DNA of 61,892 nucleotides from a virus. Both the position numbers and the translations under genes were made by a program. The notes under the pieces are model-generated. The model made no database searches. It was not told the origin of the DNA and saw only the letters and a program-made list of their open reading frames with translations. Of this stretch, positions 7,358 through 40,189 are shown piece after piece; the first letter of the stretch is position 1, and each line of letters starts with the position of its first letter. The DNA is taken from positions 1 through 61,892 of the IMG/VR virus record IMGVR_UViG_3300037961_003161; one strand, 5' to 3'.

Positions 7358-7409
7358 TAAAAACGAGGTGGCCAAGTGAGTACACACAGTCAGGCTGGGG
7401 CCTCACCTG
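7358..7409 (-). terminator. Possible terminator of the structured RNA region
   Basis: On the minus strand AGGTGAGGCC pairs with GGCCACCT (4+4 bp with a two-base bulge) across a 25-base loop, followed by CGTTTTTATT. GTGAG/CTCAC is a competing inner stem. The U-run favours termination or attenuation before the 65-aa gene. The fold is judged by eye. Confidence 0.4.
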
Positions 7410-7494
7410 TTAGTTCCATTTTACCGTGCAAGATGACTACCAGCGAACACTGACTTGTCTACACGTCTCACGCGCCACTCTCGTATGCTATTGT

Positions 7495-7652
7495 GCCCAA
7501 GGGTGGAGTCGAACCACCAATTATCCACGTTGCTCTGCACACGCAACAAGGCTCTATTTTTGTTCTGTTCCAAAGAGGTCCACTAAATCGCTCTATCCCC
7601 CTGAAGAACTTCCCACATTACCATAGATTTACTGTTCACCTTGTACTTGGGC
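7495..7652 (-). ncRNA. tRNA-like RNA element, 158 nt, non-standard
   Basis: The 5' end GCCCAAG (7652-7646) is perfectly complementary to CTTGGGC (7501-7495), giving a 7-bp acceptor-type helix, and is followed by TA as at tRNA positions 8-9. Immediately before the 3' strand is a perfect T-arm: GGTGG, loop TTCGACT (fits TTCRANY), CCACC. The middle is about 125 nt, not the usual 43-57. It holds hairpin GTTGC/GCAAC (7547-7529) and nested helices CAAGG/CCTTG, TCTAT/ATAGA and GTTCT/AGAAC. I find no normal D-arm or anticodon arm with U33. It starts six bases after the stop codon of the zinc-binding protein gene. It could be an interrupted or degenerate tRNA or a viral tRNA-like structure. Confidence 0.5.
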
Positions 7653-7658
7653 TATATT

Positions 7659-7874
7659 TTATCTAAGACATGTACCGTAACCTTTACGTCTACTTGCCTT
7701 GTAAATAGCTGCAGATACTGACTGCGACACTATTTGTATTGTGTTACCTGTCTTGTGGTTAGTAATCGGAGCTGATGCTACACGCTCTACACCACTACAG
7801 CTTACACACGTTTTGTACCCGTATTTTTGTCTTACTGGGTGTACGGGCTCACCACATCTACAATAATTTGCCAT
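7659..7874 (-). CDS. Small zinc-ribbon-like protein (71 aa)
   Basis: The N-terminus has CRCGEPVHPVR (C5, C7) and CVSCS (C23, C26); C5/C7 with C23/C26 could bind one zinc, a ribbon found in small nucleic-acid-binding proteins. The C-terminus is basic (YKASRRKGYGTCLR). It is the first gene behind a promoter-like block (7893-7930) and directly precedes the tRNA-like element, so the two may be on one transcript. Confidence 0.68.
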   Translation of the reverse strand: MANYCRCGEPVHPVRQKYGYKTCVSCSGVERVASAPITNHKTGNTIQIVSQSVSAAIYKASRRKGYGTCLR

Positions 7875-8293: not shown

Positions 8294-8527
8294 TTAATCT
8301 CCTAGTTCTATTAATTGGTTAATATAATCTTTTCTGTACTGCGCGTTATGTGGTGCGTTCTCGTTCCAGAATATACATCTGTCACTTGTTTTAGCAAACA
8401 TTGCTTTAAGCTCATCTTGTATAAACTGATAGTGAGTTCTGCCTTGTTGCCACGCTCTGTGGTCATCACTCATGTTGTGAAAGTGGTCGTGTACTTGTAT
8501 TTCCTGTGCTAATTCTTCTCTTGACAT
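8294..8527 (-). CDS. Hypothetical protein (77 aa)
   Basis: Begins MSREELAQEIQVHDHFHNM, is rich in His and Asp, and is predicted mostly helical. The His/Asp cluster (HDHFH, DDHRAW) might bind metal, but no known motif fits. Clear ATG, operon position. Confidence 0.62.
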   Translation of the reverse strand: MSREELAQEIQVHDHFHNMSDDHRAWQQGRTHYQFIQDELKAMFAKTSDRCIFWNENAPHNAQYRKDYINQLIELGD

Positions 8528-8621: not shown

Positions 8622-8825
8622 TTACTTATTTATTCTGTTATATAATTCTTCTATTACAAAGGCAAACATTTCTTCTTTCTCATCAAAGAATTTATTGTCT
8701 GACTCTTCATAGTCTCCGTACTCGTACATGTAATCTACTAGTACTTCATCTATTTTATCTATTATAGTATCGACTGTTTCATCTACTACTTTATTTATAA
8801 TTTTCTGAGGTGTTAATTTTGACAT
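8622..8825 (-). CDS. Small acidic helical protein (67 aa)
   Basis: Begins MSKLTPQKIINKVVDETVDT, followed by an acidic stretch (YGDYEESDNKFFDEKEE) and the helix MFAFVIEELYNRINK. Similar in layout to the 71-aa protein at 6121-6336. No function known. Separated from the gene upstream by four bases. Confidence 0.62.
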   Translation of the reverse strand: MSKLTPQKIINKVVDETVDTIIDKIDEVLVDYMYEYGDYEESDNKFFDEKEEMFAFVIEELYNRINK

Positions 8826-9985: not shown

Positions 9986-10025
9986 ACAGTTTTAATATCT
10001 GTAGGTGGACTAAATGAATTTGTGT
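9986..10025 (-). promoter_or_regulatory. Phage promoter block, copy 4
   Basis: Minus strand: ACACAAA (10025-10019), 17 bases, CAGATATTAAAACTGTAA. It precedes the 24-aa frame at 9964 and shares its spacer ending CACCTA with copy 2. Confidence 0.62.
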
Positions 10026-10101
10026 TGGTGGCGAGTGCTATACACGTCGTGCTATACACGCCTTCGGCGTTGCCGCCTCAGCGCGTTGCATTTAGTAGAG
10101 A

Positions 10102-19628: not shown

Positions 19629-21841
19629 TGTACGAACAAACGTTATATAAAATTGTTGAACCAGTTAAGAAGACAACTATAAATCGACTTAACAAAACTA
19701 AAAAATGGAAATATGGATATAATAAAGAAAACGATATTGTCGTTATTAGCAAAACTGGAAAAATTGGACAAGTGGTGGAGATTCAAGGTCTGCGAATTGG
19801 GTTGCCGACTGAACCGAAACGAGTGCATTTGTTCGACAAAGGTAAATGGCAAAGGCTAGAATATCCTAAAGAGTTAGGTAAATTAAAGAATATATTTGAT
19901 TGGAGATCGTATCCTGAAGAAGCAAAAGAGCAGTGGTATGATTATATAGACGAAGAGTTTAAACGTCGTGACGAAGGCTTTTGGTTTGAAAACAACGGTA
20001 AGCCTACGTATATAACTGGAAGCCATTATATGTATCTTCAATGGAGTAAGATAGATGTTGGAGCTCCAGACTTTCGTGAAGCAAATAGATTATTCTTTAT
20101 ATTTTGGGAAGCTTGTAAAGCTGATACAAGATGCTACGGTATGTGTTATTTAAAAAACAGACGTAGTGGCTTTTCGTTTATGAGCTCAGCTGAAACAGTT
20201 AATCTAGCTACAATATCATCAGACGCTAGATATGGAATATTATCAAAATCAGGGGCAGATGCTAAAAAAATGTTTACCGACAAGGTTGTACCAATATCTA
20301 TTAACTATCCGTTCTTCTTCAAACCCATACAAGATGGTATGGACAGACCTAAGAGTGAACTTGCTTATAGGGTTCCTGCTAGTAAGTTTACGCGTAGAAA
20401 AATTACTACGAACGAACAAGAGGAAGAGTTGGTTGGACTTGACACTACTATTGATTGGAAAAACACAGGTGATAACAGCTACGATGGTGAAAAGCTTAGC
20501 TTGTTAGTTCACGATGAAAGTGGTAAATGGGAAAGACCTGACAATATACTAAATAACTGGCGAGTAACAAAAACTTGTTTACGTCTTGGTAGTAGAATTA
20601 TAGGTAAGTGCATGATGGGAAGTACATCAAACGCTTTAGAAAAAGGTGGTAACAATTTTAAAAAATTATACAATGACTCAGACGTCAGAAGTAGAAATAA
20701 AAATGGACAGACAAAGTCTGGTTTATATTCTTTGTTTATGCCAATGGAATGGAACTTTGAAGGATTTATTGACGAATATGGACAACCAGTATTTAATAAC
20801 CCTAGCGATGATGTATTCGGACCAGATGGTGAATTAATAGACATTGGCGTTATTGATCATTGGGAAAATGAAGTAGAAGGACTAAAAGACGATCAAGACG
20901 CTTTAAATGAATTTTACCGTCAGTTTCCAAGAACTGAAGAGCATGCGTTTAGAGATGAAACTAAAAACAGTCTATTTAATCTTGCGAAAATATACGAGCA
21001 AATAGACTATAATGAAGGTACAGATAGCTCTGCTGTTTTAACTACTGGTAATTTTCAATGGGTTAATGGTATTAAAGATACTAGCGTAGTTTTTAATCCT
21101 GACCCTCAAGGTAGGTTTAAAGTTAGTTGGGTACCAGATAGAAATTTACAAAACCGAGTAATACTTAAAAATGGAATAAAATACCCAGGAAATGAACATA
21201 TTGGTGCCTTTGGCTGCGATAGCTATGATATTAGTGGTACTGTTGATGGTAGAGGATCCAACGGATCTCTTCATGGACTAACCAAATTTAGCATGGAGTC
21301 TGCTCCTGCTAATACTTTTTTTTTAGAATATATTTCTAGACCACAGACCGCTGAAATATTTTTTGAAGACGTATTAATGGCTTGTATATTTTATGGCATG
21401 CCAATACTCGCGGAGAACAATAAGCCAAGACTTCTTTATTATTTTAAAAGAAGAGGCTATAGAGGTTTTAGTATGAATAGACCAGATAAAGTTTGGAACA
21501 AATTATCTACGGCAGAAAAAGAAGTAGGTGGTATACCAAACTCTAGCGAAGATATTAAGCAAGCTCATGCTGCTGCGATTGAGATGTATATTAACGATCA
21601 CGTAGGTATACTTCAAGATGGAACATACGGTACGATGTACTTTAATGAAACGCTAAATGATTGGGCTAAGTTTGATATAAATAAAAGAACAAAGCATGAT
21701 GCTTCTATTAGTTCTGGTTTAGCTGTAATGGCTTGCAATAGACACTTGTATAAACCTGTTGCTGATAGGCAAAAACAAAAATTAAATTTAGGCATAGCTA
21801 GATACGATAATCAAGGCTTTGCTTCAAAAATAATAAAGTAG
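19628..21841 (+). CDS. terL: Terminase large subunit
   Basis: The packaging motor ATPase and nuclease, 737 aa. The ATPase N-half has a Walker A-like GMCYLKNRRSGFSFMSSAE (viral KxRRxGxS type, not GKT) and Walker B-like LSLLVHDESGKW (DE). The nuclease half has IGAFGCDSYDISGT with the first acidic residue and a later D/E-rich region. N-terminal 110 residues are extra relative to many TerL proteins. Between the small subunit and the portal, as in most tailed phages. Confidence 0.92.
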   Translation: MYEQTLYKIVEPVKKTTINRLNKTKKWKYGYNKENDIVVISKTGKIGQVVEIQGLRIGLPTEPKRVHLFDKGKWQRLEYPKELGKLKNIFDWRSYPEEAKEQWYDYIDEEFKRRDEGFWFENNGKPTYITGSHYMYLQWSKIDVGAPDFREANRLFFIFWEACKADTRCYGMCYLKNRRSGFSFMSSAETVNLATISSDARYGILSKSGADAKKMFTDKVVPISINYPFFFKPIQDGMDRPKSELAYRVPASKFTRRKITTNEQEEELVGLDTTIDWKNTGDNSYDGEKLSLLVHDESGKWERPDNILNNWRVTKTCLRLGSRIIGKCMMGSTSNALEKGGNNFKKLYNDSDVRSRNKNGQTKSGLYSLFMPMEWNFEGFIDEYGQPVFNNPSDDVFGPDGELIDIGVIDHWENEVEGLKDDQDALNEFYRQFPRTEEHAFRDETKNSLFNLAKIYEQIDYNEGTDSSAVLTTGNFQWVNGIKDTSVVFNPDPQGRFKVSWVPDRNLQNRVILKNGIKYPGNEHIGAFGCDSYDISGTVDGRGSNGSLHGLTKFSMESAPANTFFLEYISRPQTAEIFFEDVLMACIFYGMPILAENNKPRLLYYFKRRGYRGFSMNRPDKVWNKLSTAEKEVGGIPNSSEDIKQAHAAAIEMYINDHVGILQDGTYGTMYFNETLNDWAKFDINKRTKHDASISSGLAVMACNRHLYKPVADRQKQKLNLGIARYDNQGFASKIIK

Positions 21842-38300: not shown

Positions 38301-40189
38301 TTGATCAAAACGTATACTACGCTGTAAGAGCTAGGCATTTTTATAACAGCACTTTCGACGAAGATGATTATGTAATATTTACAATACCTTCTCAGTCAGT
38401 AATTGAGTTTACCGGTGTTACAAAAGACAACTCTCCAGAAGACATAATGGGGCTTGTAAATAATTATAAATTTTGCAATTTATCTTCTGGCACTGACTTA
38501 TTAAAAATTGATATTAAAGTAAACAACTATGAGTACAATATAAGCGATAATGACGATTTTCCTAGTTTTATTTCAAGTTATTCTCCTTATTTTGTGCTTA
38601 GGTTTTTAGACGCTAGCTATCTTGATTCTTCTGGAAATGTTGTTAGTGGCAGCGAAAAGGTTTGGAAAAATCCTGACACCCCTACTTATAGCCTTCTAAA
38701 TCCTCCTTACTCAGACCCTGCTAAACACTTACCTATAACATTTTTTGATATTAACGCAGAGAATAGTGAGTGGGTTGCAGAAGCTCCAACAGCAATACCA
38801 ACGTCTATAGGTAGTATTAGCAACCCTGTTGATTTTATAAACAATATAGAAATACAGCCAGCTACTTATCCTGATAAAAAGTTTAGTGTACTTTTAAATG
38901 TTAGCGGTCAAAGTACTGGTGGAGTAGTGAATTCTTTTATTGGTGTTTGGAGCTACGACTCAATGCCGTTTACTAATATTTATGACTTATCACAGCCTTT
39001 TCAATTCATTAATGCAGCTAACGGAACACAGCCTTATGAAAACACTATAAGCAGGCCTACCAACACTATTCTTGCAGGGTTCCAGCAGTCATATTTTAAC
39101 CACATGGTTGAGAATCCACAGCAATGGCAAGGCTCTACAGATGGCTATAGCATCTCAAGCTTATATGGCCTTACAAACCTTATTAAGGATAAGTTACTTC
39201 AAATAAACTCAAGCTACGATGGTTGGGACTGGAATAGAGGCGATACTACCTTTGACGCAGAAAGCAATCATATCAGTTTGGCTTACATAAACTTGTTTTC
39301 TAATCAGTCTGCCTTTGGTATCTCTGGTGGTAATCAAATGTCAGTCAATGGAAAAGTAGTGTATATTTCTTTCACAATATCAAACTTTGAGTATATTGGC
39401 GACTGGGAGTACGAAAATGCTTTTGCCGTTGGTTTACCATATTTTGTAACTAATGGTAGATATTCATCAGCATGGTACGATGAAAATCTCTTGTCCATAA
39501 ACGCTGGTGAAATGAGCACGCTTGCAGTTGAGCGACTACAAGCTAGAGGGTCAAACCCTAATGGTCGTTATTTTGGTAAAATAAAAATAAACCAACTTAA
39601 CAATATTACTTTTGCTACTAAATTAGGTTGTAGATATACTCTTAGTGATTTAAAAATATTTGCGGCTGACGAAGAGCTAAAAATAAAGCCTGGCGCAGGA
39701 AATATTTTTGACAGAGCTCCTGACGATGTTTTAAAAATAATACATCAATCTACTGGCTCTTCGCTTAGATTCTCTGATGCTCAATATTTAGGCGGTTGTT
39801 TTTCACCTTTCTTAGCTACACAGGTAAACGTGTTTGGTGAGCAGCATGTAATTTCTTCAAACTCAGAAGAGTCTACTATTAGTGGTTGGCAACCTTCATA
39901 CCAAGTAATAAATTTTGAAAACTACACAGGTACAAACCCTGTTCTTAAAGCTTGGGACGGTAGTAACTCTAGCAGCTTAGTACAAGACGCAATGGTTGAA
40001 TGGACTACGTTTAATTCAGCAGGAGGAAACACATTGTCATGTGACATACAGTTTGAAAACAACACAACGGGCGCACAAAGAACTTTAACTATAGGTCTTT
40101 ACAATGGAACTCCTTCTACTAGTACCCAAGCTCCTGTAGACACAATTTTAATAACACAACCATCGGTTGATTTAGACGAAGTATTGTAA
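35366..40189 (+). CDS. Giant tail protein with BACON/Ig-like repeats (1607 aa)
   Basis: A series of about 90-120-residue beta domains, each closing with a strand of the type VTLxQ or ITQ: VTLQQVEDAYV, GFEVTQDQYPI, SVTLTQDDRY, IKITQEGVEF, ILITQPSVDL. This matches the BACON domain ending (VTVTQ), a family linked to carbohydrate or mucin binding in Bacteroidota and found in crAss-like tails. The final 450 residues look like a receptor-binding module. Start is an ATG with an A-rich leader. BACON assignment is by pattern only. Confidence 0.7.
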   Translation: MNITSSSGLTIYNVTQLGTAGGTGVTTMFEISPNYGFFIAASQFTVTNLEDYPEVAGITFSDSSSANTPGNVVNVVVTWDGTTDITEDYFLNLNISVDDASIYDSSTTLIDFYLVENYDVNIGNGTVTLSVSEVNDGSLVPNDLVITSITGAYRFQGWVGSSNTVAVADVTISVTEGVRYINSSSETENLFFNQFIDQPDTSQGQFSFEYLSKTLDSFGLPKTVTYRIFFTRAEFAQEDIGTQIEYSTVGVTDYYANFVYDTVTLTEAAGNEYNLIFNTNIPFYSNTFSLSFSATWAETGDTSPSIDGLQVSYPIDYSAIPDGTAIRYNTVTLKDIYYPTITRDTVTLQQVEDAYVNLTIQLNPPGEYTSSDSPASFQYGSSAKVISYNNGNDPIYENVFLANSPGNNVNVYDDPYTSSTQYYLRAEVNETITLEMLNNGTVGFEVTQDQYPIDAFPAKDWCDFSTTQWYESSPGVYKRGFYIRNQDAVNFQGTHVNTTDRTATFTLTHPLGTASSSVTLTQDDRYTISEAGGSVKIVEYDSGIFAPSEDSQFSSVGYSNASDPGNVNFTATATSGFGTTQYKVRIKFDNLDFDFNLYNNVTTSQDAPTFKQYPTPSYAGQPSGQLIPNDSPGGPPYYVDFDDDSFFTNYTQELIYNENYDASNPDEDHHYTFVFTLKNNDTYSNRHVTWNFTHPKNEAAGPLSVNYDGTAATDVSFKILQPAFDQLDANINDPDSGQPLGIYSQSYPYVISSEAQTVTISLAYSGTTLPTIGLYSDAGVYTPLAQSTVVNGISYVVNNDAQIVEGGTTRTITVTLTGNTDSEDRENTLGFWHANSTAAIDSPNDAIKITQEGVEFDEVDHDIILYTTQPYEQSTGGNTITLLVKVLNYTAENYANSVANTDNSLDPVVEVYRWNGPNVQDGIYYDTEGNYDNGTLTSPTVLSVTANPLYNSSGPLSTFGGVQVSYTHTVQVSYTENNLDQNVYYAVRARHFYNSTFDEDDYVIFTIPSQSVIEFTGVTKDNSPEDIMGLVNNYKFCNLSSGTDLLKIDIKVNNYEYNISDNDDFPSFISSYSPYFVLRFLDASYLDSSGNVVSGSEKVWKNPDTPTYSLLNPPYSDPAKHLPITFFDINAENSEWVAEAPTAIPTSIGSISNPVDFINNIEIQPATYPDKKFSVLLNVSGQSTGGVVNSFIGVWSYDSMPFTNIYDLSQPFQFINAANGTQPYENTISRPTNTILAGFQQSYFNHMVENPQQWQGSTDGYSISSLYGLTNLIKDKLLQINSSYDGWDWNRGDTTFDAESNHISLAYINLFSNQSAFGISGGNQMSVNGKVVYISFTISNFEYIGDWEYENAFAVGLPYFVTNGRYSSAWYDENLLSINAGEMSTLAVERLQARGSNPNGRYFGKIKINQLNNITFATKLGCRYTLSDLKIFAADEELKIKPGAGNIFDRAPDDVLKIIHQSTGSSLRFSDAQYLGGCFSPFLATQVNVFGEQHVISSNSEESTISGWQPSYQVINFENYTGTNPVLKAWDGSNSSSLVQDAMVEWTTFNSAGGNTLSCDIQFENNTTGAQRTLTIGLYNGTPSTSTQAPVDTILITQPSVDLDEVL

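Follow-up and report, generated by a model that had tools for sequence, protein, structure and literature searches.

What kind of RNA is encoded where an acceptor stem and a T-arm are intact and no cloverleaf can be drawn between them? This question is raised by a locus in IMG/VR virus record IMGVR_UViG_3300037961_003161, a 61.9-kb record of the Cellulophaga phi38:1/Flavobacterium elemo-like podophage kind, whose whole 61,892-nt sequence is called the window here. The first-pass annotation had placed a 158-nt tRNA-like element with a 7-bp acceptor, a perfect T-arm, and no normal cloverleaf at this locus. Its coordinates are right and the element is encoded on the minus strand, with the 5′ end at position 7652 and the 3′ end at 7495; the RNA has an acceptor stem, a canonical T-arm, and A73, and is without a D-arm or an anticodon arm. 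It belongs to a real, unannotated RNA family whose stems are under selection. From the comparisons described below, we consider it probable that the element is a stable phage RNA whose tRNA end would serve as a scaffold, as a signal for processing, and as bait for factors that bind tRNA.

The tRNA-like motif by itself is only mildly improbable, and alone it is a weak finding. The element shows the 7-bp acceptor and the T-arm with a UUCRANN loop that characterize tRNA (RF00005), and when the window was simulated as 60 first-order Markov copies, a T-arm with an acceptor of seven Watson-Crick pairs within 280 nt arose 7 times, or ~0.12 times per window. The earlier statement that the combination is unlikely by chance was therefore too strong for the motif alone, and it is conservation and covariation among homologues that support the element. 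ARAGORN detected no tRNA or tmRNA anywhere in the window, and an Rfam scan of the window gave nothing at the gathering score and nothing relevant at E ≤ 10, so that standard tools find no plain tRNA there. The tmRNA model (RF00023) had no match in the window, and in relatives it aligned to the T-arm alone, with scores of 13.5 and 7.7 bits. A folding program forms the acceptor and T-arm unprompted (−45.5 kcal/mol), with an energy that is not significant against shuffled sequences.

The first homologues were found with sequence patterns and a neighbour-gene search (contigs L005, L011/L003, and L085) and by scanning (L055/L056), and a final search, with a degenerate pattern for the conserved core, completed the set. 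In all, the family has 16 distinct full members, which range from 137 to 224 nt; 15 come from IMG/VR, and a phage record in which the family occurs contains a single strong copy. Members score 101–173 bits with model R1, compared with about 13–31 bits for ordinary tRNAs; weak R1 matches in L041 (51 bits) and L051 (36 bits) are without the inner core and were excluded as members. Eight different acceptor 5′ strands occur (GCCCAAG, GGGTGTG, GAGCCGA, GAGCTGA, GTGCCGG, GGACAGA, GCGTAGA, and GCATAGA), and all pair with their 3′ strands. The distance from the start of the acceptor to the end of the core is constant at 43 nt (42 in L237), and the acceptors were therefore not chosen by free sliding.

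Covariation was measured in a block alignment of 14 members from which the variable arms had been cut out. In this alignment 99.4% of the 321 cells are paired, compared with 84% in shuffles, a percentage that is favoured for the T-arm, where collection of members required five pairs, without favouring its double changes. Uncompensated loss of acceptor or T-arm pairing, named in the first-pass annotation as the sign of a spurious element, was thus not seen. Both sides have changed in 13 of 23 pairs, in 51 cells (shuffles, 7.5 pairs and 15 cells), and the covarying pairs are distributed over the acceptor (6/7), T-arm (4/5), helix P2 (2/6), and helix P3 (1/5); many of the rows are related, so these counts are not independent events, while the different acceptors plainly represent several. 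None of 500 shuffles reached the covariation score, and registers slid along the alignment pair at 37–57%.

The 5′ block of the element is also far better kept than the adjacent genes. Across the relatives compared, shared genes have 48–74% protein identity and agree at 41–65% of four-fold degenerate sites. Between the window and L055, the most divergent case at 48% protein identity, 44/108 four-fold sites agree, as do 40 of the element's first 46 nt. The corresponding values are 104/191 and 43/46 for L085, 209/356 and 45/46 for L011, and 112/172 and 46/46 for L005.

The architecture that is conserved can be followed from the 5′ end. The acceptor strand GCCCAAG (7646–7652) forms seven Watson-Crick pairs with CUUGGGC (7495–7501). 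Helix P2 follows, with ACAAGG (7639–7644) pairing with CCUUGU (7546–7551) in both the fold and the covariation alignment. Next comes the core, UGAACAGUAAA-UCUAU-GGUAAUGUGGGAA (7610–7638), which is near-invariant in alignments across members; its UCUAU (7623–7627) is the 5′ strand of helix P3, which the covariation alignment pairs with AUAGA (7553–7557). In family terms, the order is acceptor, P2, an 11-nt one-sided bulge (UGAAMAGUAAA), P3, GGNAAUGUGNNAA, and hypervariable arm v1, and then the 3′ sides of P3 and P2, hypervariable arm v2, GG with an A/U-rich strand, T-arm, acceptor, and A or G. P2 and P3 stand where the D-arm of a tRNA would be. In the window, v1 is 50 nt long with its own hairpin (7560–7609; 21–74 nt in relatives), and v2 is 27 nt long (7519–7545; 23–87 nt in relatives) and ends in GGAUAAUU, a possible D-loop equivalent. 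No sequence in v1 or v2 is common to all subgroups; folding of the arms as hairpins in most members is suggestive only, with individual p-values of 0.003 to 0.76. The T-arm, GGUGG-UUCGACU-CCACC, occupies 7502–7518, and the discriminator A73 (7494) is followed by CAA (7491–7494 with A73); across the family the discriminator is A or G. Every member has a GG 8–16 nt ahead of the T-arm, in the same place as GGUUAAU in the ~40-nt minihelices of related phages described below, and we infer from this position that the GG may be the D-loop equivalent.

Could the element be a tRNA that is interrupted, spliced, or decaying? The first of these readings, raised in the first-pass annotation, is not supported by inspection of the 16 members: no anticodon stem results whichever arm is removed, and the most strongly conserved sequence, GUGAAMAGUA...UAUGGNAAUGUG, sits within the supposed insert. 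An anticodon arm with a 7-nt loop and U33 was not found with ARAGORN or Rfam, and the stem and loop lengths of the v2 hairpin differ among subgroups. The annotation's other suggestions, a degenerate tRNA with new functions or a tRNA mimic, fit better, given the tRNA-Leu ends, the lack of a conserved anticodon arm in all 16 members, and the selected stems. These ends match Bacteroidota tRNA-Leu (GCCCAAGU...CUUGGGCACAA), for example the tRNA-Leu(GAG) of a Flavobacteriales genome, and the likeness extends to A73 and to a hairpin where the long variable arm sits. Unlike tRNA-Leu, the family has no D-arm or anticodon arm and does not keep its acceptor sequence. The tRNA-Leu ends are what would be expected of a decaying tRNA-Leu pseudogene or of an attP site copied from the 3′ end of a host tRNA, but covariation, purifying selection, and acceptors that differ among phages already contradict this origin, which we regard as very improbable. 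As a candidate attP, the 3′ half GGTTCGANTCCACCCTTGGGC had no exact match in a collection of 84,980 species genomes.

A tRNA-shaped end could also act only as punctuation. In this explanation, the chief rival to a stable RNA, the tRNA-like would make RNase P and 3′-end enzymes cut a polycistronic transcript, with the inner arms as filler. It would account for the intergenic position of the element on the coding strand, where in the window it starts 6 nt past a stop codon, and for two features of relatives, namely minihelices that are little beyond an RNase P target and a tRNA-like that overlaps a stop codon. However, the inner core is the part kept best, yet RNase P has no need of it. In L244, L245, and L253–L256, moreover, a repeated promoter-like box, GGAACTTT...TAGTATAATAAGTAATA (also written GGAACTTT...TAGTATAATAAGTAA), ends a few nucleotides before the acceptor, often with a second copy after the tRNA-like, leaving nothing to separate. 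The boxes suggest that the element has its own transcript in these phages, and since they lie directly ahead of it the tRNA-like need not be an intergenic spacer. We therefore judge punctuation alone to be unlikely. In mascRNA/MEN-beta (RF01684) and plant mitochondrial t-elements, a tRNA-shaped end likewise lacks a working anticodon and directs RNase P; these RNAs differ from the family in being eukaryotic and in having no conserved inner core of its kind, and the Rfam mascRNA model gave 15.6 bits on member L250, under its cut-off of 42.5.

Anticodon-less tRNA-like RNAs have precedents in tmRNA, plant viruses, and mascRNA, and tmRNA raises the possibility of action on the ribosome. The tRNA-like could enter the ribosome or bind SmpB, EF-Tu, or a synthetase and thereby disturb translation or ribosome rescue. 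Its plan of acceptor and T-arm, with long inserted arms replacing the anticodon arm, is that of the tRNA-like domain of tmRNA (RF00023), and one relative, L235, carries at 8368–8448 (minus strand) an 81-nt tmRNA cut down to this domain, with G3-U70 and without the messenger part (69.4 bits with the Rfam tmRNA model; cut-off 47). The family, in contrast, has no G3-U70 (pair 3–70 is G-C, C-G, or A-U), no constant aminoacylation identity, and A or G at position 73, in RNAs of 137–224 nt. Nor does it have a tag: no reading frame is conserved in length or sequence over the 16 members, and the one tag-like candidate, an open stretch of 32 codons in L011, is interrupted in the window by a UAG and is lacking in the other members. 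Such tmRNA-like action is improbable for the family. The stripped tmRNA of L235 could itself be a competitor of the host's tmRNA for SmpB or alanyl-tRNA synthetase.

The variable arms contain hairpin modules that also occur in other frames. Module M1, 27 nt nested in v1 (GGGGGATAGAGCGATTTAGTGGACCTC, 7575–7601), has its only other occurrences within IMG/VR in the B element of three further phages. M2 occurs in v1 of L085 and v2 of L237 and, in all, in 17 stretches with 12 different flanks, among them tRNA-likes, B elements, and others, and M4 is common to v2 of L011 and an element D. The presence of modules in different frames indicates that hairpins have moved between structured frames. The arms might accordingly be landing sites of selfish mobile hairpins, with the tRNA-like a safe harbour selected for something else, as identical modules in unrelated frames (M1 in the tRNA-like and in B, M2 with its 12 flanks, M4 in the tRNA-like and in D) would suggest. 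This explanation leaves the conservation of the frame itself unaccounted for, and the flanks of M2 differ yet pair anew in each context, as expected if modules are kept as RNA structure (45 pairs compared with a shuffle mean of 33.3, p about 0.0004, in a register picked after seeing the data; a register off by one gave no signal). We give it an even smaller chance than tmRNA-like action. A broader proposal, that aquatic Bacteroidota phages keep a combinatorial RNA toolkit of anticodon-less frames, tRNA-shaped or otherwise structured, that swap hairpin modules from a shared set, from frame to frame and phage to phage, and act as tRNA-mimicking decoys or effectors against host translation or tRNA-targeting defence, is speculative and rather doubtful.

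How, then, would a stable phage RNA of this kind work? It would be transcribed alongside early genes or, in other phages, from its own promoter, and host tRNA enzymes would make its ends, with RNase P acting at the 5′ end and tRNA 3′-end processing and CCA addition at the other. The tRNA end would shield the RNA from decay, and the RNA, which would not read codons, would act through its conserved core and tRNA-shaped end, the likeliest route being to tie up a host or defence factor that binds tRNA. Because the acceptor and discriminator vary freely, the partner should recognize tRNA shape rather than a single amino-acid identity. Of the possible functions, we rate that of a decoy for factors that bind tRNA as the most likely. 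Cas12a3 nucleases, among them one from a Bacteroidetes bacterium, contact tRNA at its T-arm, acceptor, and CCA tail (PMC12851939); they are an example of a possible decoy target and not evidence for one. Several points weigh against the stable-RNA reading. The single-sequence fold energy is ordinary (z = −1.13), with 29 of 200 shuffles folding as well; contact between D-loop and T-loop is only suggested, with a GG-to-T-arm spacing that varies over 8–16 nt; the start of the window element 6 nt after a stop codon is also compatible with a processing signal; and the family is known here from its sequences. As bacterial defences cut tRNAs (PMC12851939), a tRNA-end mimic in Bacteroidota phages is directly testable as a counter-measure.

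The family, with its covarying stems, conserved inner core, and exchangeable hairpins, lies outside Rfam and is missed by tRNA finders. Phage T4 RNAC and RNAD are small non-coding RNAs of unknown function (PMC9697503), and the family resembles them in that general description. No account of the family was found in open-licence papers on anticodon-less tRNA-likes, phage tRNA-like RNAs, Cellulophaga phage RNAs, stripped tmRNAs, and new structured RNAs. In annotated phages, blastn of the locus gave no match, and the core of the family was likewise not found there by blastn. The window is assigned to its podophage kind by genes for GroEL, a terminase (PHROG 6681), a portal, and ribonucleotide reductase, with the terminase 64% identical to that of MW202828 and 47% to those of elemo phages. 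The family extends to several phage groups, and some contigs have no detectable homologues of window proteins: the L244 contig has a different terminase (PHROG 38), and the L250 member lies near a Nol-like carbamoyltransferase. The hosts would be aquatic bacteria, presumably Bacteroidota by extension from cultured relatives; none of 395 genomes from a likely host class, that of a Flavobacteriales metagenome-assembled genome, contains the core pattern. Three further candidates were rejected: crAss-like phage cr126_1 has an isolated 21-nt near-match, with the rest of the element missing, and matches to pattern ATCTATGGTAATGTGGG in L086 and to ACARAAATAGAGCCTTG in L111–L115 are due to chance, with no element there.

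Other tRNA-likes, many of them without an anticodon, are abundant in related phages, in line with the reading of the element as a phage RNA. A count over 594 kb of relatives gave 72 strong T-arms, of which 47 have acceptors, compared with 0–2 and 0–1 in shuffled copies, and about 30 of 41 distinct tRNA-likes are non-canonical. Phage ‘intergenic’ DNA can hide unannotated structured RNAs, in cultured Cellulophaga phages as well. The minihelices of ~40 nt, an acceptor and T-arm joined by a NGGUUAAN linker, lie between genes in L008, L010, L022, L029, L030, L037, L081, and L083. At 8642–8791 of L051 is a tRNA-Leu-like gene whose variable arm is very greatly enlarged; it appears to be intermediate between a tRNA and the elements described here. 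Cellulophaga phi38:1 (L263, NC_021796) carries an unannotated, anticodon-less tRNA-like with D-arm and T-arm at 20675–20817 (minus strand), of the same broad class as the window element, a short way upstream of rtcB, the gene for a tRNA-splicing ligase, and 94–100% conserved in phi40:1 and Calle phages, and also, at 38539–38624, a tRNA-Leu(UAG)-like RNA without a normal D-arm that ARAGORN misses. MW202828 (L266) has a tRNA-Leu-like RNA at 523–633, with a D-arm and a 30-nt loop replacing the anticodon loop, and at about 637–699 a tRNA-like with D- and T-arms and no anticodon arm.

In the window, the tRNA-like follows a gene for a 71-residue protein without a Pfam or PHROG family (7659–7874, minus strand), the stop codon of which is the one noted above. 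Directly after the tRNA-like, and outside it proper, is element B (7364–7484, minus strand), closed by CGAG-GUGGC...GCCAC-CUCG and followed by UUUU; it has two insertion points for variable hairpins and is present at the same gene in about 26 relatives. A further structured-looking segment at 10010–10095 (minus strand) is closed by CTAAATG/CATTTAG and contains a repeated GTGTATAGCAC unit, and parts of it recur in L034, L084, L087, and L091.
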